Assembly (NCBI RefSeq): GCF_007845675.1
Contig: NZ_VOBR01000007.1
Coordinates: 186,001 to 250,000, forward strand
DNA: 64,000 nucleotides
Source: Lentzea tibetensis
Lineage (GTDB): Bacteria > Actinomycetota > Actinomycetes > Mycobacteriales > Pseudonocardiaceae
Reading direction: 5' to 3'
Part shown: in pieces, positions 8,526 through 17,359 of the stretch
How positions within the stretch are numbered: position 1 is the first letter of the stretch
Layout: each line of letters begins with the position of its first letter
Position numbers and translations under genes: made by a program
Notes under the pieces: model-generated
The model's input: the letters and a program-made list of their open reading frames with translations, nothing else
What the model was told of the DNA's origin: nothing
The model's database searches: none

Positions 8526-9407
8526 TCAGGCGGCGAGTTCGGCGCTGAGGGCGTCGGCGATCTCCTCGGCTGTCAGACCGGTGGGGAGCAGTGGTGCCAG
8601 TGCTTTCGCGAGCACGGACACGTCTGCCGCGCCGGTGGCGAGATCGCGCAGCGCGTCGACGACCTTCGCCTCGCTGTGGGTGATCGCCCCGTCGAACGCC
8701 TCCTCGTCGGGCTCGTCCGACTCCTCTTCCTCTTCCTCCTCTTCGCCGTCACCCACGATCTGCTGGAGCAGCTCGATCGCCTCGCGGATGCGCTCGTGCT
8801 CCTCGTTGACCTCCTCGCGCTCGGCGTCGTGCTGGCCCCAGTCGTCGGTGAGGACCTCGTTGACGTCGCACTGCACGCCGCCGACGTGGGGCTGCGGCGA
8901 GGCCTGCTGGTAGAGGTGCCTGCCGTCGAAGTACCGCACCGGCGTGCCGGACCAGGCGCGGCACTGCCAGAACCAGGTGGCCACGCCCTCGTCGGCGGCG
9001 CGCGCGACCACGTCGTGCTCGCCGTACACACCGACGTTCTCGACGCCGAGCACGTCGCTCGCCCCGCGCAGGTACTCCATGGCGGCCACGAACTCGTGCT
9101 CGTGCACGACGTCCTGGTCCACCGCGAAGTAGATCGGACGGTCCTCGGGGAAGCCGATGGCGTCGGCGTGGTCGCGCGCGATGCGCGCGGCGGCCTGGCC
9201 GCCGTCGAACCCCGCGCGCCAGTCGCCCGCGGTGTGCTCGTAGACCAGTGCCATCCCGAGCTCGTGCTCGGTGAAGTCGGCGAGCTCCTCCGCCGTGGTG
9301 CACTTCCTGTTGTTCGGGAAGCCGATGTAGCGGACGGCGCCGCCGTAGCCGTCCGCGGCGATGGCGGCCGCTCCCGGAAATCCCGCTGAGTAGTCGAGAA
9401 CCTGCAT
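8526..9407 (-). CDS. DUF1906 glycoside-hydrolase-like protein with acidic C-terminal region
   Basis: 293-aa protein. Residues about 1-195 match the DUF1906 (Rv2525c-like) TIM-barrel fold: VLDYSAGFPG at the start, YIGFPNN, IYFAVDQDV with a conserved Asp, and QCDVNEVL. The family is linked to cell-wall or lysozyme-like functions, but activity is unproven. A helical segment and a run of Glu (EEEEEEE, about residue 220) come before a short C-terminal domain. There is no signal peptide, unlike Rv2525c, which is Tat-exported. GGAAGG lies upstream of the ATG. It is the last gene of the acid-tail cluster. Confidence 0.8.
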   Translation of the reverse strand: MQVLDYSAGFPGAAAIAADGYGGAVRYIGFPNNRKCTTAEELADFTEHELGMALVYEHTAGDWRAGFDGGQAAARIARDHADAIGFPEDRPIYFAVDQDVVHEHEFVAAMEYLRGASDVLGVENVGVYGEHDVVARAADEGVATWFWQCRAWSGTPVRYFDGRHLYQQASPQPHVGGVQCDVNEVLTDDWGQHDAEREEVNEEHERIREAIELLQQIVGDGEEEEEEEESDEPDEEAFDGAITHSEAKVVDALRDLATGAADVSVLAKALAPLLPTGLTAEEIADALSAELAA

Positions 9408-9434
9408 GGTCTTGTCCTTCCCCCTGTTGTGCGA

Positions 9435-10628
9435 TCAACTGGCCAGCTCGTGCAGCAGCGCCGTGGCGGTGTCGACACCACGGGCGAAAGCGCGCAGCGA
9501 GAGGCGTTCGTTCGGCGCGTGCATGCGGTCGTCGGGGAGCGCGAAACCCAGCAGCAGCACCGGGATGCCGCGTTCGGCGAAGCGGCCGACCACCGGGATG
9601 GTGCCCCCGGACCTGGTCAGCGCGGGGGAGCGCCCGAACCCCCGCCGGCAGGCCCGCACGGCCGCGCGCACCGCCCACCCGTCAGTGTCCAGCGTGACCG
9701 GCACCGCGGAAGCCTTGCGGCGCAAAGTGATCCGCACACCGGACCGGGTGCGTTCGCGGAAGAAGCGCCGCACCTCCCGTTCGACCGCCTCCGGCCGCTG
9801 ACCGGCACCGAGCCGGATGTCCAGCGCCGCGAACGCCCGCGCGGGCACCACCCCGGCACCGGTGCCCGCCCGCAACGCGGTGACGGTCAGAGCCGGCCCC
9901 CGCGTGTGGTCGCGGGCCGGCCGCAGCACCGGGTGCTCACCCAGAGCGGCGAGCAACCGGGACAGCTCGAGCGCGGGCTGGGCGACCGCGCCGCCGTACG
10001 AGCCCGCGTGCAGGTCGGTGTCCGCGCCGCGGGCCAGCACGGTCAGCTTCACCGTGCCGCGCAACGAGATCGTCAACGCGGGCACGTCCGGGGCGGCCAT
10101 CCTGGTGTCGCTGATGACGACCAGGTCCGGGCGCGTCCGGTCGAGGAAACCGGCCGTGTGCACGCTGCCGATCTCCTCCTCCCCGTCGAACACGTACCGC
10201 ACGCTCACCGGCAGTCGTCCCGCGGTGCGCAGCCAGCTCTCGGCCGCGGCGACGTGCGTCAGCAGCTGCCCCTTGTTGTCGGAGGTTCCCCTGCCCACCA
10301 GAAGGTCCCCGACCCGCGTCGGGTGGAACGGCGGGGAGTCCCACTCCCTCAACGGCCCCGGCGGCTGCACGTCGTAGTGCCCGTAGACGAGCACCCTGGC
10401 GTGCCGGTCACCGGCCACCACGAGCGGATGGCCGCCGGTGCAGACCATCCGCGCACCGGTCAGCCCGGCCCGCCGCAGCCTGCCGGTCAGCCACACCGCG
10501 GCACGACGCACGTCCGCGCGGTGCGCGGGATCCGCGCTGACGCTGGGGATGGCCGCGAGGTCGGCGACGTCCTGCACGAACCGTCGCCGGTGCCTCGCCG
10601 CGTATCCCAGCGCCCGCGCGAGACTCAT
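9435..10628 (-). CDS. M20-family metallopeptidase (dipeptidase type)
   Basis: 397-aa zinc peptidase. Metal-binding blocks are visible: LVYGHYDVQPP, GRGTSDNKGQLL, the catalytic pair in FDGEEEIGS, and the C-terminal His in APNERLS. Members remove N-terminal residues or cleave dipeptides in the cytoplasm. The ATG at 10628 overlaps the stop of the upstream gene, so it is co-translated within the acid-tail cluster. Substrate unknown; a link to processing the cluster's other products is speculation. Confidence 0.88.
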   Translation of the reverse strand: MSLARALGYAARHRRRFVQDVADLAAIPSVSADPAHRADVRRAAVWLTGRLRRAGLTGARMVCTGGHPLVVAGDRHARVLVYGHYDVQPPGPLREWDSPPFHPTRVGDLLVGRGTSDNKGQLLTHVAAAESWLRTAGRLPVSVRYVFDGEEEIGSVHTAGFLDRTRPDLVVISDTRMAAPDVPALTISLRGTVKLTVLARGADTDLHAGSYGGAVAQPALELSRLLAALGEHPVLRPARDHTRGPALTVTALRAGTGAGVVPARAFAALDIRLGAGQRPEAVEREVRRFFRERTRSGVRITLRRKASAVPVTLDTDGWAVRAAVRACRRGFGRSPALTRSGGTIPVVGRFAERGIPVLLLGFALPDDRMHAPNERLSLRAFARGVDTATALLHELAS

Positions 10629-11821
10629 CGCTTGTGCCCGTTGGCGGTCGCCAGCCCGCTGCCCTTGTAGACGCCGAGCCCACCGCGCTGCGAGTACGCG
10701 GGCCGCTCGGAGGCGGGCGTCGCCACACCGGCCGGACGGTGCTGGTCCCACGGCAGGACGCGTTCGGTCTCGGTGCGTTCCGCCACCCGCAGCGACTGCG
10801 CGGAGGTGATCCACTCCTCGGCCGGTTCCGCGGCTTCCAGCAGCAGCGTCTCGAACTCCGCACGGGTCGACTCCAGCAGGTGCGGACCGGCGAGCCAGCG
10901 CAGCACCTGCCGTCCGGTGACACCCATCCGCTGACGAGGCGACGTGACGAGCCGCTCGTCGAAGTAGCGGATCAGGACCTCGTCCACGACGTCCCACGCG
11001 TTGGCCGCGCCGAACAGGTCCTTGACGTCGTCGGCGTTGAGGATCTTGAAGGCCTCCTCCAGCAGCTGCATGACCTCGACGCGCAACACGTTGAGGTGAC
11101 CGTAGGAGGTGAACTTCAGGTTGTTGCGGAGGTCCAGCCCGGCCCTGCGGACGACGGCGATGCTGCCGAAGCTCGGGTCGTAGGACCGCGCCCGGATCAC
11201 GTCCGAGATCCGCTTGTCCCGCCAGAACAACGCGATCTGGTTGTTCAGGTGCACGAACAGCCGGTGGAAGTCGGTGTTCGGCCGCGAGTTCGCCGCGCCG
11301 GATCCCTTGCCGTAGCCCAGGATCCGCCGGTACGCGCCGATCCGGTCGCGCTTGGTGTACCGCAGCACGTCGCGCCGGTCGAACTTGTACAGCCCGAACG
11401 CGCCCACGCCGTCGGACAGCCGGATCGAACCGCCCTGGAACAGCTCCTGCAGCTTCTGCACCACGCGGAACACGCCGATCCGCTCGTGCTGGTACAGGTA
11501 GTACAGGTCGCCGACCGCGTAGATCCGTTCGGACGCGACGTTCTCGTCGTAGCTCTCCACCCCGCGCGGCAGGCTGGTCTGGCCGAGCGTCGCGGCGGCT
11601 TCCGGCCCGATGCCGACGAGCTGGCCGAGACCTCCGTCCGGTACGGCGGGCTTGGCCCGCTCGGCCGTCTCGACGCTCTCCAGCATGTCGTCGATCTGCC
11701 GGATGAGCGAGTCCGCGAGCTGCGGGTTGACCGTGAGCTCGCCGGCCAGCTTGTTGGCGACCTGCCCGCGCAGTGCCGCCACCCGGTCGAAGAGCTCCTT
11801 GTACTCCTTCTCGGTTGCCAT
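10625..11821 (-). CDS. Unknown protein of acid-tail cluster (398 aa)
   Basis: I do not recognise this protein. It has a helical N-terminus (residues 1-60), an aromatic- and Arg-rich middle (IYAVGDLYYLYQHERIGVFR, then LFQGGSIRLSDG), a helical second half, and a basic, Gly-rich disordered tail. No catalytic motif, membrane segment or signal peptide is seen. The start ATG at 11821 has GGGGGATCGAG before it. The stop overlaps the M20 gene by 4 nt, and it follows the 450-aa gene by 10 nt. Confidence 0.75.
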   Translation of the reverse strand: MATEKEYKELFDRVAALRGQVANKLAGELTVNPQLADSLIRQIDDMLESVETAERAKPAVPDGGLGQLVGIGPEAAATLGQTSLPRGVESYDENVASERIYAVGDLYYLYQHERIGVFRVVQKLQELFQGGSIRLSDGVGAFGLYKFDRRDVLRYTKRDRIGAYRRILGYGKGSGAANSRPNTDFHRLFVHLNNQIALFWRDKRISDVIRARSYDPSFGSIAVVRRAGLDLRNNLKFTSYGHLNVLRVEVMQLLEEAFKILNADDVKDLFGAANAWDVVDEVLIRYFDERLVTSPRQRMGVTGRQVLRWLAGPHLLESTRAEFETLLLEAAEPAEEWITSAQSLRVAERTETERVLPWDQHRPAGVATPASERPAYSQRGGLGVYKGSGLATANGHKR

Positions 11822-11831
11822 CTCGATCCCC

Positions 11832-13184
11832 CTACTTGCCGGACCGCTTGGCGCGCGACCGCGGTGTGTTCGGTGTGGACAGTTCCGCCTTGAGCCGCGC
11901 GACCAGCTCGTCGAGCTGGCCGTCGGACAGCTTCGCGGACCCGTTGGACTGCGGGACGACGTCGTCCTCGTGGTGCACGTTCTCGGCGATCCGGACGATC
12001 TCCTGCAGGTCGTCGTGCAGCTCGTCGATCGCCACCTGCACGCGCCTGCTGAAGAACCCGGCCGGGAGCGTGTTGCGGAAGCTCACCGTGTCGTCCTCTG
12101 CAGGGACCGGGGTGGTGCGCCTCGGCAACGCCCGCACCAGTCGCTCGAGCCTCCTCGCGACGAAGACGAACGCGTTGTCCACGCCGTCCTTGCCCAGCTC
12201 GGCCATCTTCTTGCCGTCGTTGAGCGCGAACTCGTGCACCCAGCGGGTCAGTCCGCCGAGGGTGATCGACCCGCCGAGCTGCGCGGGAACCGGCACCCTG
12301 AGCACCTCGCGCTCACCCGCGGTGATCATCACCGAGTCGAGCGCCACCCACAGCTCGTCCACCTGCGCGGCGGTCGCGGCGAGCAGCTGCGACAACGCGA
12401 TCAGCGCGGGCCCGAAGAAGCCGTTGTCGTTGTCCGGGTCGAACGGGTCGATCTTGCGCTTGACCCGCGTCCACCCGTCGTACAGCCCGACGTTCCAGTC
12501 CACCAGCGTGATGAACGAGGTCTGCACCCGCTCTTCCTCGATGGTGTTGACCAGCCGGGAGATCATGCCGAACTCGTCCCGCAGCCTGCCGAGGTGGCCG
12601 CCGACGTTCTCGTCGGTGATGACGTCCGGTTCACCTTCGCCACCGCGCGGCGGGTCCAGCAGCATGTCGAACAGCTGGTCCACCTTCGGCACCCTGATCA
12701 ACGGGCTCTCGAACTCGCGCAGCAGCGCCTGCATGTCCTCGCGGACGAGACTGCGGAAACCCTCGGCGTCCTGCGGGTCGAAGTCCACCCGCAGCGGCGT
12801 CAGCGAGTCCAGCAGCGTCAGCGAGTCCTTCACCGCCGTCCGCGCGCGGGCGGCGAGCGACGCCTGACCCCCGGTCACCGCACCGAGATCGGCCTGCACC
12901 GCGTAACCACGCGGCCTCCAGTTCGCTTGCGTGTGCCCCTCGACCTGGGTGAGCTCGAAGCTCCCCGCCAGCGCCGCCGCGAACCCCTTGGCATCGCCCG
13001 GACGGAACTTCCAGCCCAGCACACTGCTGATCGCGTCGCTGGCCAGCCTGCCGAGCTCGCCCTCGCCGCGTTCCGTCGACGACGACGAGATCGTGCCGAC
13101 GTCCCTGGTGAGGATCGGGAACGCCGCGTCGATGTCGTGCGGGTTCTCGAGTGCGGCGCCGCGATCGGGCTCTTTGCTTGTCAT
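11832..13184 (-). CDS. Unknown protein of acid-tail cluster (450 aa)
   Basis: 450-aa cytoplasmic-looking protein of unknown function. The N-terminal 50 residues are polar and low-complexity. The remainder is mostly predicted helical, with a conserved-looking acidic stretch (DPFDPDNDNGFFGPALIAL, about residues 250-270) and a basic C-terminal tail. No NTPase, membrane or catalytic motif is seen. The ATG at 13184 overlaps the stop of the 149-aa gene upstream and is preceded by GGGGGAGG. Confidence 0.75.
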   Translation of the reverse strand: MTSKEPDRGAALENPHDIDAAFPILTRDVGTISSSSTERGEGELGRLASDAISSVLGWKFRPGDAKGFAAALAGSFELTQVEGHTQANWRPRGYAVQADLGAVTGGQASLAARARTAVKDSLTLLDSLTPLRVDFDPQDAEGFRSLVREDMQALLREFESPLIRVPKVDQLFDMLLDPPRGGEGEPDVITDENVGGHLGRLRDEFGMISRLVNTIEEERVQTSFITLVDWNVGLYDGWTRVKRKIDPFDPDNDNGFFGPALIALSQLLAATAAQVDELWVALDSVMITAGEREVLRVPVPAQLGGSITLGGLTRWVHEFALNDGKKMAELGKDGVDNAFVFVARRLERLVRALPRRTTPVPAEDDTVSFRNTLPAGFFSRRVQVAIDELHDDLQEIVRIAENVHHEDDVVPQSNGSAKLSDGQLDELVARLKAELSTPNTPRSRAKRSGK

Positions 13185-13630
13185 CGTGTTCCTCCCCCTT
13201 CGTCTGTGATCTCGCGCCAGCACCTCATCAGCGCGTCGCACACGGCCTGCATCGGCTCGGCGCACCTGGCTCCGCTGGAGATGACCGAACCGGCCCAGCC
13301 GCGCCACTCCGGTCCGTGGCCCCTGATGCCGGTCAGCAGGTCGCTGACCGCGAGGTAGGACCGCATGCGCTCCTCGTACCGCCTGCGCAGCGCCTCCAGC
13401 TCGACCGCCGCGCGGTAGACGTTCTCCGGACAGGGCCCGGAGTCGAGCGTCCGCAACGCACTGTCCAACCAGGACAGACCGTCCGAGATCGTGTCGCTCA
13501 CGTCGTCGGCGACGGCCAGTCCGCAACCGGCGGGCCGGTCCTCGGTGACCGTGACGATCAGCTCCCGCCACGAGTCGTGCAACCGGGCGACGGCCTCGCG
13601 CAGCAACGGGACCTCGGTCCGCACGCTCAT
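13181..13630 (-). CDS. Small helical protein of acid-tail cluster (149 aa)
   Basis: 149-aa predicted all-helical protein with five cysteines and conserved-looking tryptophans (HDSWREL, GPEWRGWAGS, CWREIT). Function unknown. Its ATG at 13630 overlaps the stop of the HExxH gene, and its own stop overlaps the next ATG, so it is tightly coupled in the operon. It could be a partner or chaperone of the neighbouring proteins (inference). Confidence 0.7.
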   Translation of the reverse strand: MSVRTEVPLLREAVARLHDSWRELIVTVTEDRPAGCGLAVADDVSDTISDGLSWLDSALRTLDSGPCPENVYRAAVELEALRRRYEERMRSYLAVSDLLTGIRGHGPEWRGWAGSVISSGARCAEPMQAVCDALMRCWREITDEGGGTR

Positions 13631-14949
13631 CGCGACCTCCTCCCCAGCTCCGTGAAGAAGTTGCGCATCAACCGGTCCGGGCTCGCCAGCCCGCGTTCCA
13701 CCGCGGTGCGCACGGCGCTGATCAGGAACCGCTCGGGCAGCACACCGGGGTCGACGCCCTCGGCGAGCCTGCCCGCCGCCTCCTCGATCATCACCTGCTC
13801 CTTCGGTTCGAAGCGCAGCACCGTCATCAGCGTGCGGTGCCCCAGCGACGGGAACTCCGTGCGGCACAACGCGTCCACCACGAGCGGTACCGCGGTGCGC
13901 GCGGTCTGCAGCAGCGGCCGCGGGATGTCCGATCCCCGCGTGTCCGGGTAGAGCGCGCGCCACGTGCGCCGGTACTGCTCGGCCTCCTCGGGAAAACCCA
14001 TGCGCCGCAACAGCTCGACGGACAGGAACGCGCGCAGGTACGGCGTCGGGTGGACGCCGCCGGGCAGGTAGCCCAACGTCTGGCGCCGCGAGCGGCCCAC
14101 CACGTCGAACAGCGACCCGACCGTGCCCGGACCACCGAGCAGCAGCCCGGCGAGGTCCGCGAAGATCTCGCGATTCCACCGGGTCCACGTGCTCGCGACC
14201 GACCGCGGCAACCCCGCGCCGAGCAACCGCTCGGCGATCCGCACCGGCACCACCTTCTGCAGCCCGAGGTCGTTCTGCAGGTTGTGGCTCACCTCGTGCA
14301 GGATCGCGCCGAGCGTCCACGGGTTCAGCAACCGGTGGTACGGCAGCTGGATCAGCGCGAACGGGTTGAGCTGCCGCCCGATCTTGCTCAGCCGGATCCC
14401 GCGCCGATAGGTGGCGGGGGAGAAGCCGGTGCGCATGTAGGCGAACGGTGGCGGCGCCGGAACCGACTTCGCCACGCCCACACCGAGGTACGCGTACTGG
14501 TAGCAGTCCAGTGCGATGCGGTCGCACGCCACCAGCCACGGCGCGAACGACGACTGGCGTTGCCCGAACAGCTCCAGGTAGAAGTCCCAGACCTGCTCGG
14601 TGGCGCGCACCCAGTCGTGCGCCTTCGACTTCAGCTCCAGCAGTGCCGTGACCCGTTCCCTGCTGGGGTCGTCGGCGGCGGCCTCGGCGGTGTCCTTCAG
14701 CTCCGCGATGACCCTGCCGAGCGGTGTGCGGAGCGTGCCGAGCAGTGCGTTGACCGCCTGGACGTGGCCCCGGCTCGGCCCGGTGGCCGGGTCGCCGAAC
14801 TCGTCGACGCGAAACGGGCGCAGCCCGGCCCGGTGCCGGGTGACGTTCTGCGCCTGGCTGAGCACCCAGGTGCGCAGGTGTTCCGACGGGACGGCGCCGC
14901 GCGCCGGTCCGGTCCGGCGTGCCTGCGGCGCGAGGAGCTCAGCGACCAT
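13627..14949 (-). CDS. HExxH zincin-like protein of acid-tail cluster
   Basis: 440 aa from the chosen ATG at 14949. A metallopeptidase-type HEVSH motif is at about residue 218, with a possible third ligand in REIFADLAG about 40 residues later, typical of zincins. Family not identified. There is no signal peptide, so any activity would be cytoplasmic or after non-classical export. The start is uncertain: the frame is open upstream through an Ala/Pro-rich stretch back to the previous stop region, with another GTG at 14970. It follows the 217-aa acidic protein by about 115 bases. Confidence 0.7.
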   Translation of the reverse strand: MVAELLAPQARRTGPARGAVPSEHLRTWVLSQAQNVTRHRAGLRPFRVDEFGDPATGPSRGHVQAVNALLGTLRTPLGRVIAELKDTAEAAADDPSRERVTALLELKSKAHDWVRATEQVWDFYLELFGQRQSSFAPWLVACDRIALDCYQYAYLGVGVAKSVPAPPPFAYMRTGFSPATYRRGIRLSKIGRQLNPFALIQLPYHRLLNPWTLGAILHEVSHNLQNDLGLQKVVPVRIAERLLGAGLPRSVASTWTRWNREIFADLAGLLLGGPGTVGSLFDVVGRSRRQTLGYLPGGVHPTPYLRAFLSVELLRRMGFPEEAEQYRRTWRALYPDTRGSDIPRPLLQTARTAVPLVVDALCRTEFPSLGHRTLMTVLRFEPKEQVMIEEAAGRLAEGVDPGVLPERFLISAVRTAVERGLASPDRLMRNFFTELGRRSR

Positions 14950-15064
14950 GTCGACGCCTGCCGGCGACACTGGCGCGGCGCGCGGCCCCGCCGCAGCGGC
15001 GGCGTTGCGGCGTGCGGTAACCGCCGGACTGGGTGGTGGTGCGGCGGCCGCCGGTGGTGCGGCG

Positions 15065-15718
15065 CTAGTGCCTGCGGTTGAGCTGGTTCGTCGCGCGCAC
15101 CGCGTCCGACTTGCCCGCGCCCAGCGTGTCGGCCATGTTCTTGCCGAACGTGCCGATGGCCCGGCGCGCGCTGATGTCCTTGCCGTCGGCCCACTGCCCG
15201 GCCAGGTCACCCGCGGTCTTCAGCACCGCGGACGGCACGGCCTTCACCAGCTGGCGGGTCTCCGGCCGGTTCCACAGCTGGCGGCCGACCTTCGCGACCC
15301 CCTTGATCAGCTGCGGCCCGAACTTCCTGATCACCGGCATCGCCTTGGGCAGCACCTTCGCGGCCAGCGGGATCAGCGCGCCGAGGAACGCCTCGGCCTC
15401 CGCCTCGCTCTCCGCGTTCGCGGCCTGGGTGGCGAAGTGGGCCATCAGCTCGGCGTCGCGGGCGATCCCGAGCCTGCTCGCGCGCAGGTTCGGATCCGCG
15501 AAGTCCTCGAACTCGAACTCCAGCTCGTCTTCGAACTCGAGCTCGTCCTCGTCTTCGAACTCCAGCTCGCGGACCAGTCCCTCGAACTCGCCCTCCCACT
15601 CGTGCTCGCCCTCGCACTCGTCCTCGAGCTCCAGCTCGTCCTCGAACTCGCCTTCCCACTCGAACTCGAGCTCGTCCTCCAGCTCGCCGTCGATGGTCGG
15701 GTACCTGTTGCGGCTCAT
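15065..15718 (-). CDS. Acid-tailed protein 2 (217 aa)
   Basis: Residues 10-73 are almost only Glu, Asp, Phe, Leu, Trp and Gly, in short alternating repeats such as ELEFEDE and EWEGEFE. Residues about 90-200 form a second region, AELMAHFATQAANAESEAEA, then a cationic amphipathic stretch (about 118-150) and a helical C-terminus. The region from residue 90 on resembles part of the neighbouring 348-aa protein. There is no signal peptide or enzyme motif. It lies 12 bases after that gene, in the same operon. I recall uncharacterised proteins of this composition in other soil bacteria but cannot name a family. Confidence 0.75.
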   Translation of the reverse strand: MSRNRYPTIDGELEDELEFEWEGEFEDELELEDECEGEHEWEGEFEGLVRELEFEDEDELEFEDELEFEFEDFADPNLRASRLGIARDAELMAHFATQAANAESEAEAEAFLGALIPLAAKVLPKAMPVIRKFGPQLIKGVAKVGRQLWNRPETRQLVKAVPSAVLKTAGDLAGQWADGKDISARRAIGTFGKNMADTLGAGKSDAVRATNQLNRRH

Positions 15719-15730
15719 GCGTTCCCCCTC

Positions 15731-16777
15731 CTAGAACTCGTTCTGCGCCACCGTGCGGACGCTCGCGGTGCGTCCGGCGGGTACGGCTCCCTTGGGCACC
15801 TTGACGTGCGAGACGACGCGGACGAGCCGCGAGCCGTTCGGCCCCGGAACCCGGATCGGCGTCGTGACCTGGACGGTCGAGCGGCCCGGTTGCTTCGCGA
15901 CCGCGCCCGGCACGACCGGCGCGCGCAGCGGTCCCGGATAGGTCGCGACCATGCCGAGCTGACGGGCCTTGCGCACCCCGCGCACGTGCTTGGTGAGCGC
16001 CTGCTGCGTGGCGCGCGGGTCGGCGAACACCCGCGTGGCGTGCGCTCCCATGGCGTGGCCGACGACCTGGCGGGTCAGCGGCTGCCCGGTGCGGGCGTAC
16101 TTCGTCAGCGTCTTCGCCGTGCTGTCCACGATGGACGGGACGACACCGGTGTACGGGCGGGTGGCCTTGTTGCGGTGCAACAGCTCGGCGAGCACCGACG
16201 CGCCGCACACGAGGTCCGCGTGCACCTGCCGCAGCGCGCGGCGGTCCGGCCTGGCGAGCAACGTGCTCGTGGCCGCGCCGACCAGTGCCTCGGCCTCGCT
16301 CTCCGACTCGCTCCGCGCGGCGCTCGCGGCGAACGCCTCGGCCTGGGCGCGGCTCGCGCTGACCGGCCGGGTCATCTCCTCCTCGAACTCGGCCTCGTCT
16401 TCGAGCTCGCTCTCCAGCAACGACCCGATCGCCTTGCCCGCGATTCCACCCAGCGGACCGCCGAGCGCCGTGCCGATCATGGGGGCGGCGATCTTCGCGA
16501 ACGGACGCAGCACCTTCAGTCCGCGTCCGGCGAGCCTGCCGACCTTGCGCAGGCCGCGGCCGATCTTCTTGAAGAACTCCTCGCCTTCGTCCTCGAGCTC
16601 CAGCTCGTCCTCGAACTCGTACTCGGCCTCGTACTCGCCCTGTCCGATCAGGGCTTCGAGTTCGTCTTCGAACTCGCTCTCGTACTCGCCTTCGAGCTCC
16701 TCCTCGGCCTCCAGCTCGTCCTCGCCTTCACCCAGGACGGTGCCGAGGAACTCCTCGTATTCCATCTGTCGGTTCAT
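15731..16777 (-). CDS. Acid-tailed protein 1 with basic/Gly-rich hydrophobic segment (348 aa)
   Basis: First gene of the minus-strand cluster. Residues 16-67 are a Glu/Asp/Tyr/Phe-rich tract. Residues 69-95 switch abruptly to a cationic amphipathic segment (FFKKIGRGLRKVGRLAGRG). Residues 96-121 are hydrophobic and Gly-rich (IGTALGGPLGGIAGKAIG). A second acidic tract (122-134) follows, then a core domain (145-250) shared with acid-tailed protein 2, and a basic C-terminus. The ATG at 16777 has AGGAG seven bases upstream. Function unknown; the layout looks like a membrane-active segment flanked by neutralising acidic tracts (inference). Confidence 0.78.
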   Translation of the reverse strand: MNRQMEYEEFLGTVLGEGEDELEAEEELEGEYESEFEDELEALIGQGEYEAEYEFEDELELEDEGEEFFKKIGRGLRKVGRLAGRGLKVLRPFAKIAAPMIGTALGGPLGGIAGKAIGSLLESELEDEAEFEEEMTRPVSASRAQAEAFAASAARSESESEAEALVGAATSTLLARPDRRALRQVHADLVCGASVLAELLHRNKATRPYTGVVPSIVDSTAKTLTKYARTGQPLTRQVVGHAMGAHATRVFADPRATQQALTKHVRGVRKARQLGMVATYPGPLRAPVVPGAVAKQPGRSTVQVTTPIRVPGPNGSRLVRVVSHVKVPKGAVPAGRTASVRTVAQNEF

Positions 16778-16993
16778 TTCGCAGCTCCTGTTCCCTGGAC
16801 TGGGAACATTCACCCGCACGCCCTGACCTGGGAAAAGTCACACATTCCCCTGCGGTGCGATCGCGCTACTGCACACGTGTGTCACACGTATCGGGGACGC
16901 GGCGAATGGCGGATTGCGCAACTCTGGTTACTGGAACCTTGCGCGTTTCGTCCGGGGGGACGGGTTCCGCACACGCCAGGGGAGGGCGTTTTC
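16778..16993. promoter_or_regulatory. Divergent control region of the acid-tail cluster
   Basis: The 216-bp gap between the divergent 348-aa gene and the LuxR-type gene. It contains the palindrome CACACGTGTG at 16872-16881, followed closely by a partial copy (CACACGTA), which could be an operator. No sure -35/-10 pair was found on either strand. The layout suggests that the LuxR-type protein controls the cluster, but this is inference. Confidence 0.4.
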
Positions 16994-17359
16994 ATGGATC
17001 CACAAGGGGTGATGGAGGACGACCGGGTCAGAGCGCTGCTGCGCGCGCTGGTGCGGCGAGTGCACGAGCTGGGGCCGTCGGGAGGGGTGCCGCTGCTCGA
17101 CACCGAGGAGCTGGGCGTCCGCTGCTTGCTGCTGCCGATGAATCCGGAACCGGTCGACGTGCTCAGTCCACGTGAGCGGGAAATAGCGAGGATGGTGGGG
17201 TTGGGGCACACGAACAAGATGATCGCGGCCGTGCTGGAGATCAGCCTCTACACGGTCTCGACGCACCTGCGCCGGATCTTCGCGAAGCTGGACGTGTCGA
17301 CCAGGGCGGCCATGGTCGCCGTGCTGTCCGACAACCACGGCCTGCCCAAGTCGGGCTAG
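16994..17359 (+). CDS. LuxR-type HTH protein
   Basis: 121-aa protein. Residues about 55-115 are a LuxR/GerE helix-turn-helix, with LSPREREIARMVGLGHTN, then KMIAAVLEIS and TVSTHLRRIFAKL. The N-terminal 50 residues are too short for a receiver domain, so it is a stand-alone DNA-binding protein or an orphan effector. GGAGGG lies seven bases before the ATG. It is divergent from the acid-tail cluster and is its likely regulator. It overlaps the convergent LLM gene by 4 nt. Confidence 0.85.
   Translation: MDPQGVMEDDRVRALLRALVRRVHELGPSGGVPLLDTEELGVRCLLLPMNPEPVDVLSPREREIARMVGLGHTNKMIAAVLEISLYTVSTHLRRIFAKLDVSTRAAMVAVLSDNHGLPKSG

Follow-up and report, generated by a model that had tools for sequence, protein, structure and literature searches.

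A cluster of eight genes (G1 to G8, minus strand, from position 16777 down to 8526) with a divergently transcribed LuxR-type gene, located in a stretch of 64,000 nucleotides (the window) of the 9.36-Mb genome of Lentzea tibetensis, has in our judgement an even chance of being a deployment system for interchangeable toxin-like effectors, with a new core. It is read as deploying effectors because peptidoglycan hydrolases, peptidases and nucleases stand behind shared adaptors in related loci; these variable lytic or nuclease genes after the core in other genomes, which lay beyond the initial annotation of the window, are, to judge by their predicted domains, the telling feature of the cluster. 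The open reading frames (ORFs) and the gaps between them (12, 115, -4, -4, 10, -4 and 27 bp from G1 to G8) agree with the operon of eight close or overlapping genes and a divergent LuxR-type gene that had been annotated:

15731..16777, minus strand: G1, 348 aa, with an N-terminal alternating-acid tract (E-hydrophobic-E-x), a Gly-rich stretch, a conserved domain and a basic C-terminus
15065..15718, minus strand: G2, 217 aa, laid out like its paralogue G1
13627..14949, minus strand: G3, 440 aa, putative zinc peptidase belonging to no listed family, with the motifs HEVSH and WNREIFAD (alternative GTG start at 14970)
13181..13630, minus strand: G4, 149 aa, no family assigned
11832..13184, minus strand: G5, 450 aa, no family assigned, mostly helical model
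10625..11821, minus strand: G6, 398 aa, best conserved of all members, with an all-helical model in which confidence is low
9435..10628, minus strand: G7, 397 aa, M20-family peptidase
8526..9407, minus strand: G8, 293 aa, Rv2525c-like glycoside hydrolase-like protein, candidate cargo
16994..17359, plus strand: divergent LuxR/GerE-type helix-turn-helix (HTH) gene, 121 aa (PF00196, E 1.2e-15)
16876..16888, no strand: dyad CGTGTGTCACACG in the divergent promoter, candidate operator
16793..16841, no strand: two 21-bp direct repeats, 81% alike and 28 bp apart, close to the dyad

Matches to known families within the cluster are limited to G7, G8 and the LuxR-type gene. The M20 peptidase and DUF1906 protein of the initial annotation were both recovered, G7 as PF01546 (E 2.2e-26) and G8 as PF08924 (E 1.3e-23), and its statement that no named system was matched stands: neither Pfam nor NCBIfam assigns G1 to G6 to a family over cut-off, and nothing in PHROG or PADLOC matches them at an E value below 0.025. 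PADLOC gave no match for G1 to G8 at E values up to 1, and for the LuxR-type gene weak matches, apparently to the HTH parts of models. Sequence searches of the PDB with profiles of G3, G5 and G6 yielded weak helical matches only, the best (E 0.002) to designed proteins and none significant.

With G6 as bait, 58 loci with 53-93% identity were found in six phyla (Actinomycetota, Acidobacteriota, Cyanobacteriota, Chloroflexota, Verrucomicrobiota, and Pseudomonadota by one Nitrosomonas bin). Loci with 6.5 kb or more of sequence upstream of G6 are here called complete; all 52 of them contain one or more acidic genes and G3, 51 a recognizable G5, and 42 a recognizable G4, which was undetected in all ten cyanobacterial loci. 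All 52 keep the order acidic-(acidic)-G3-(G4)-G5-G6, and two have an extra acidic gene after G6. Given this identity over 58 loci and this constancy of order, the cluster is not a product of chance; the genes recur together far outside close relatives, the outcome that the initial annotation named as support, rather than as scattered homologues without shared neighbours. Of the 52, 47 have a LuxR-type relative, located either ahead of the acidic genes or on the downstream side of G6; single cases may be unrelated because such HTH genes are common. An M20 relative is present in 31 of the 58 loci, some of which are truncated, and a 2.4-Mb Paraburkholderia megaplasmid carries the complete cluster including the LuxR-type gene and M20.

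The gene system is widespread yet rare. Matches to the cluster were found in 10 of 298 genomes of its own order (counting its own genome, with two matches short and weak), in 5 of 339 of a cyanobacterial phylum sample (two being loci already in the set and one match being distant) and in 2 of 347 of an acidobacterial sample (both already among the known loci); all 25 carrier genomes searched have a single copy. In the tree built from 56 rows of G6, where the nearest relative of the window's G6 is that of Lentzea sp. NBRC 105346, Acidobacteriota, Cyanobacteriota and Verrucomicrobiota account for one change each and Actinomycetota and Chloroflexota for two each; because the phylum changes are so few, the spread looks old, or transfer between phyla only rare. 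No relatives of G6 or G3 were found in phages or viral contigs.

Two enzyme families were also observed near the cluster. An Amidohydro_2 gene accompanies it in 20 examined loci of several phyla (e.g., L026:12327-13196), the Paraburkholderia and Ensifer plasmids included, and was not seen beside the cluster of the window. A gene resembling pyridoxal phosphate (PLP)-dependent aminotransferases (PF00155) lies near it in two Acidobacteria (L036:12702-13790, L042:14232-15368) and in Ensifer (L074:17072-18328).

After G6, and ahead of the M20 or amidohydrolase gene where there is one, variable genes were read in 20 of the 58 loci (L026, L029, L033, L034, L038, L042, L044, L045, L046, L048, L050, L051, L053, L055, L057, L058, L060, L062, L064 and L067); L012 additionally carries G8. 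Domains were sought in 31 distinct proteins, of which 25 are cargo candidates, picked partly by eye, and six are not (an amidohydrolase, an aminotransferase, two distant core proteins and two genes between G4 and G5). Twelve of the 25 have a domain over the Pfam cut-off:

L033, after G6: Aspzincin_M35
L029, after G6: PG_binding_1; fourth gene trypsin-like
L058, after G6: Peptidase_M15_3 with PG_binding_1
L046, after G6: PG_binding_1 with OmpA
L067, after G6: GIY-YIG
L055, after G6: DUF2272
L051, after G6: Endonuclea_NS_2, a nonspecific nuclease (barely over cut-off)
L048, after G6: Peptidase_M15_4, with genes 76-77% identical in L053 and L085
L060, after G6: trypsin
L038, after G6: OmpA (barely over cut-off)
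L074 (Ensifer), beside a distant core: GIY-YIG with PG_binding_1

Several of these proteins share regions that are joined to different C-termini. The first region, of about 90 aa, is common to three proteins, one of Geodermatophilus ending in M15_4, one of a cyanobacterium with DUF2272 and one of an acidobacterium whose C-terminus is different again (within a set of 21 proteins, blastp E 1e-8 to 4e-15; hmmsearch against all ORFs of the loci, E 8e-25 and 1e-39). The second, of about 100 aa, is N-terminal in proteins of Chloroflexi (L044/L045) and cyanobacteria (L051, L057, L062) whose C-termini differ, one being the nonspecific nuclease, and the third, of about 130 aa, is found in three cyanobacterial proteins (L067, L050, L080), one with GIY-YIG. 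In another cyanobacterium (L081), three different proteins have a common N-terminus (...QWLFE[AT]P[LF]T). A constant region joined to variable C-terminal domains, the hallmark of polymorphic effectors (compare PMC3482391), can be recognized in the predicted proteins of related loci. Beside three cyanobacterial clusters there is also a conserved protein of about 300 aa (L055:12418-13326, L081:883-1902, L082:7751-8635), a candidate immunity or accessory gene.

The acidic proteins may also link core and cargo. G1 and G2 are paralogues in which an acidic tract is followed by a Gly-rich cationic stretch and a conserved domain of about 130 residues (by eye) with a basic tail; the tract, rich in Glu, Asp and Phe, is N-terminal, and the name "acid-tailed" first given to these proteins has to be corrected. 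When 185 acidic tracts from 103 G1/G2-type proteins were compared with composition-preserving shuffles, acidic residues were enriched at lags 2, 4 and 6 (z = 51.5, 47.7 and 36.7) and depleted at lags 1, 3 and 5, and hydrophobic residues were enriched at lag 4 (z = 26.6), values that are inflated because the proteins are related; the repeat unit is therefore E-hydrophobic-E-x. The window's own G1 and G2, taken singly, obey the rule (lag-2 z 3.9 and 4.7). Peptides with alternating charged and hydrophobic residues tend to form beta-assemblies. Twelve cargo N-termini follow the same rule (lag-2 z = 10.8, lag-4 5.8), a result that speaks to alternation and not to acidity because these sequences, including related pairs, were chosen for their acidic N-termini and the shuffles gauge alternation only. 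In two cyanobacteria a third acidic G1/G2-like gene (L047:11249-12175, L052:11339-12364) occupies the place after G6 where other loci have cargo.

The acidic proteins might instead be an extracellular matrix or the precursors of a biosynthetic product, to be modified by the M20, Amidohydro_2 and PLP enzymes, with the hydrolases incidental. A strict E-hydrophobic-E-x repeat would suit a beta-rich assembly, and the enzymes recur (M20 as counted above, Amidohydro_2 relatives in 20 loci, the PLP enzyme in 3); however, M20 was not found in 27 of the 58 loci, some of them truncated, and shared adaptor regions on differing peptidases and nucleases after G6 would be left unexplained. Such an operon is improbable.

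A programmed-lysis cassette is also improbable. Here G1 and G2 would be holin-like or would form pores after cleavage by G3, hydrolases of the G8 type would be endolysin-like, and part of the population would be lysed. Several of the host genera are multicellular or filamentous, the Gly-rich stretches of G1 and G2 are cationic, and G8, whose start lacks signal-like hydropathy, is similar to endolysin families of phages (PHROG E 3.6e-34). Against this, neither G1 nor G2 has a strongly hydrophobic segment (KD19 hydropathy maximum 1.26 and 1.51), relatives of G6 and G3 are missing from the phages and viral contigs searched, and nucleases and peptidases, one nuclease having a peptidoglycan-binding domain, surpass what lysis needs.

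Five residues of G3 (H218, E219, H222, E261 and D265) are unchanged throughout the 36 aligned sequences, which include three distant plasmid copies at 22-28% identity. The zincin signature (HExxH with a downstream Glu ligand) is present at the sequence level, and the invariance of the five motif residues suggests that G3 is a gluzincin-like peptidase. A Pfam peptidase model matched only one of the 36 members (Zn_peptidase, E 0.16), and family scans of the aligned members of G3, G5 and G6 gave scattered unrelated matches (best E 0.0026, 0.0081 and 0.00033). The structure model of G5 is mostly helical with good confidence (pLDDT 81.4, pTM 0.68) and that of G6 all-helical with low confidence (pLDDT 66.7, pTM 0.57). 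In a distant cyanobacterial copy (L082:9933-13032), two genes between G3 and G6 that the G5 profile missed replace G5. The zinc-peptidase motif of G3 and the strict acidic repeat make the processed, assembled product proposed in the initial annotation plausible, its processing and its assembly being themselves conjectural.

On three plasmids (L070, L071, L072), distant relatives of G3 or G6 (about 20-29% identity) lie near genes for CHAT, S8, patatin, phospholipase D, cyclase or ATP-binding proteins, which may represent a second effector system, related to this one, in Burkholderia and rhizobia; in L070:9515-21480, four proteins that resemble one another and share a motif (such as VKFPTFVASLISGVFQSI) flank the S8 and G6-like genes. 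Such neighbours, adenylate cyclase among them, would fit an intracellular conflict system resembling abortive infection, in which the core senses invasion or damage, the effectors kill the producer, and the acidic tag is an effector-association domain. The excerpted parts of Kaur et al. 2020 (PMC7159879) describe conflict cores linked to variable effectors by short shared domains; export signals were not seen in the present cluster, and Effector-associated domain 2 was matched in one of the 36 G3-family members, at E 0.12 only. On the other side, no NTPase or sensor domain was recognized in the operon, PADLOC had no family for G1 to G8, and several effectors have peptidoglycan-binding or D-Ala-D-Ala peptidase domains whose substrate is outside the membrane. 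We consider intracellular conflict unlikely.

The divergent promoter of the window contains a perfect dyad, CGTGTG-A-CACACG, that occurs at one place in the whole genome, which means little alone because a backward control pattern occurs at two. The shorter motif GTGWCAC occurs in 16 of 54 loci within the 500 bp preceding the first acidic gene; these upstream stretches, 27,810 bp in all, hold 18 sites and the remaining 1,010,007 bp hold 56, which makes the rate 11.7 times as high upstream. The longer pattern [CT]G[AT]GTG[AT]CAC[AT]C[AG] is matched at 12 or 13 of its 13 positions upstream in 13 loci of 54, versus 0.2% of 1,011 control windows, an enrichment that is overstated because some of the sites served to define the pattern and a number of the loci are closely related. 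Matches to the longer dyad span four phyla (cyanobacteria, Verrucomicrobia, Chloroflexi and Actinobacteria), and no acidobacterial locus reaches 12 positions. Its recurrence in such distant phyla is not easily attributed, from the sequences compared, to pattern definition or kinship, and the LuxR-type protein may bind it as its operator. The promoter region of the Iningainema locus (L067) has a 33-bp palindrome with 16-base arms upstream of the first acidic gene.

Within the window, the candidate cargo is G8, which begins 27 bp after G7 and is predicted to be a wall hydrolase-like protein of the kind found after G6 elsewhere. It has an internal poly-Glu run only and does not follow the alternating rule (lag-2 z 1.2), so that support for effector deployment is weak in the window itself, and among the 58 database loci it occurs only in L012, the nearest relative. 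These two facts weigh against the deployment of effectors, as do the choice of the cargo candidates and tag sequences and the dyad control described above, together with the following. In thirteen of the 25 cargo candidates no domain passed the cut-off (L029 b and L034, with sub-threshold M35; L081 c, with sub-threshold GIY-YIG; and L029 c, L042, L064, L044, L050, L057, L080, L081 a, L081 b and L082). Most actinobacterial loci showed no clear cargo among the matches listed (M20 or nothing recognizable after G6) in scans limited by reading-frame noise in high-GC DNA. No immunity gene was recognized among adjacent small genes, which were inspected by eye in some of the loci. The models of G5 and G6, for which a fold shared with alpha-pore-forming toxins (ClyA/AhlB/XaxB type) was considered, have no significant structural neighbour among solved folds. 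Crude hydropathy revealed no membrane channel or export signal in the core proteins (a KD19 maximum of 1.6 is reached by 6% of G1 proteins, 2% of G4, 2% of G5, 36% of G3 and none of G2 and G6), and by the same measure none of the 11 cargo proteins examined has a signal-like start.

If the cluster does deploy effectors, we infer export, toxicity and a scaffold role as follows. G1 and G2 would form a scaffold through their E-hydrophobic-E-x tracts, to which matching alternating-acid tags would bring the cargo, with G5 and G6 as a framework; G3 would then cleave the assembly or the cargo and so activate it, after which the cationic Gly-rich segments of G1 and G2 could disturb a membrane. Assembly would be cytoplasmic, and because no clear secretion signal or channel was seen, release would probably follow from producer lysis or be effected by the membrane-active segments of the assembly itself, with competing cells as the probable target; the producer under attack or sister cells may be the target instead. 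In the window, the cargo would be the peptidoglycan hydrolase-like G8, with the M20 peptidase perhaps accessory. A bolder form of this mechanism, which we hold only tentatively and consider somewhat unlikely, is a delivery machine of six phyla, unrelated to phages, in which acidic alternating-strand proteins self-assemble into a particle or condensate, load tagged effectors, are matured by a new zinc-peptidase family and rupture membranes by their cationic Gly-rich segments.

If effector deployment is correct, bacteria have a further route by which antagonistic proteins are assembled and deployed, the core of which is overlooked by current annotation, and genes that follow G6 or bear an alternating-acid N-terminus offer a handle for the discovery of effectors. 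G3 would represent a new putative metallopeptidase family, and E-hydrophobic-E-x is a concrete, code-like protein sequence, the physical meaning of which is testable. None of the literature matches listed describes the cluster in its title or the beginning of its abstract, with preprints outside the scope.

Four known systems invite comparison, in which components said not to be recognized in the operon were sought in its proteins P0001-P0009. Phage holin/endolysin modules resemble the cluster in the endolysin-like hydrolase without a signal-like start, G8, and differ in that the cluster has no holin-like, strongly hydrophobic protein and its core relatives were not found in phages or viral contigs. 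The Photorhabdus virulence cassette (PVC) and other extracellular contractile injection systems (eCIS) share a metallopeptidase motif HExxHxxQ (HEVSHNLQ in G3 of the window) and cargo with OmpA and peptidase domains, whereas tail, tube, sheath and ATPase genes were not recognized in the operon. The tube family PF06841 is absent from the L. tibetensis genome and from 14 of 25 other carrier genomes searched, DUF4157 has no match in 36 G3 members at E values up to 1, and the likeness is confined to the local HExxHxxQ string, the Q of which is not kept in distant G3 relatives.

The NTP-dependent multi-effector conflict systems, as portrayed in the excerpts of Kaur et al. 2020 (PMC7159879), use short shared domains to tie a conserved core to variable effectors that include peptidases, nucleases and attackers of the peptidoglycan wall, a likeness to the present cluster, but no NTPase, MoxR, vWA or STAND component was recognized in the operon by Pfam or NCBIfam. 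The polymorphic toxin systems, in the portions of Zhang et al. 2012 (PMC3482391) drawn upon here, combine a constant region with exchangeable C-terminal domains and are trafficked by types II, V, VI, VII, PVC, Tc, PrsW and MuF. The likeness extends to exchangeable peptidases, nucleases and peptidoglycan-acting domains, releasing peptidases, and cargo with OmpA and peptidoglycan-binding domains, but the cargo here adjoins a separate multi-gene core, and no immunity genes were recognized. Among the trafficking systems named in those portions, none was recognized in the operon by Pfam, NCBIfam or PHROGs, the eCIS tube being the only part searched for elsewhere in the genome; a trafficking system encoded elsewhere could serve the cluster. 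In the window, the sole candidate for a constant-plus-variable architecture is G8. The union of a constant part with variable effectors is a known principle; the core of the present cluster is by all appearances new, since no contractile-tail gene, NTPase core or known trafficking part was recognized in the operon.

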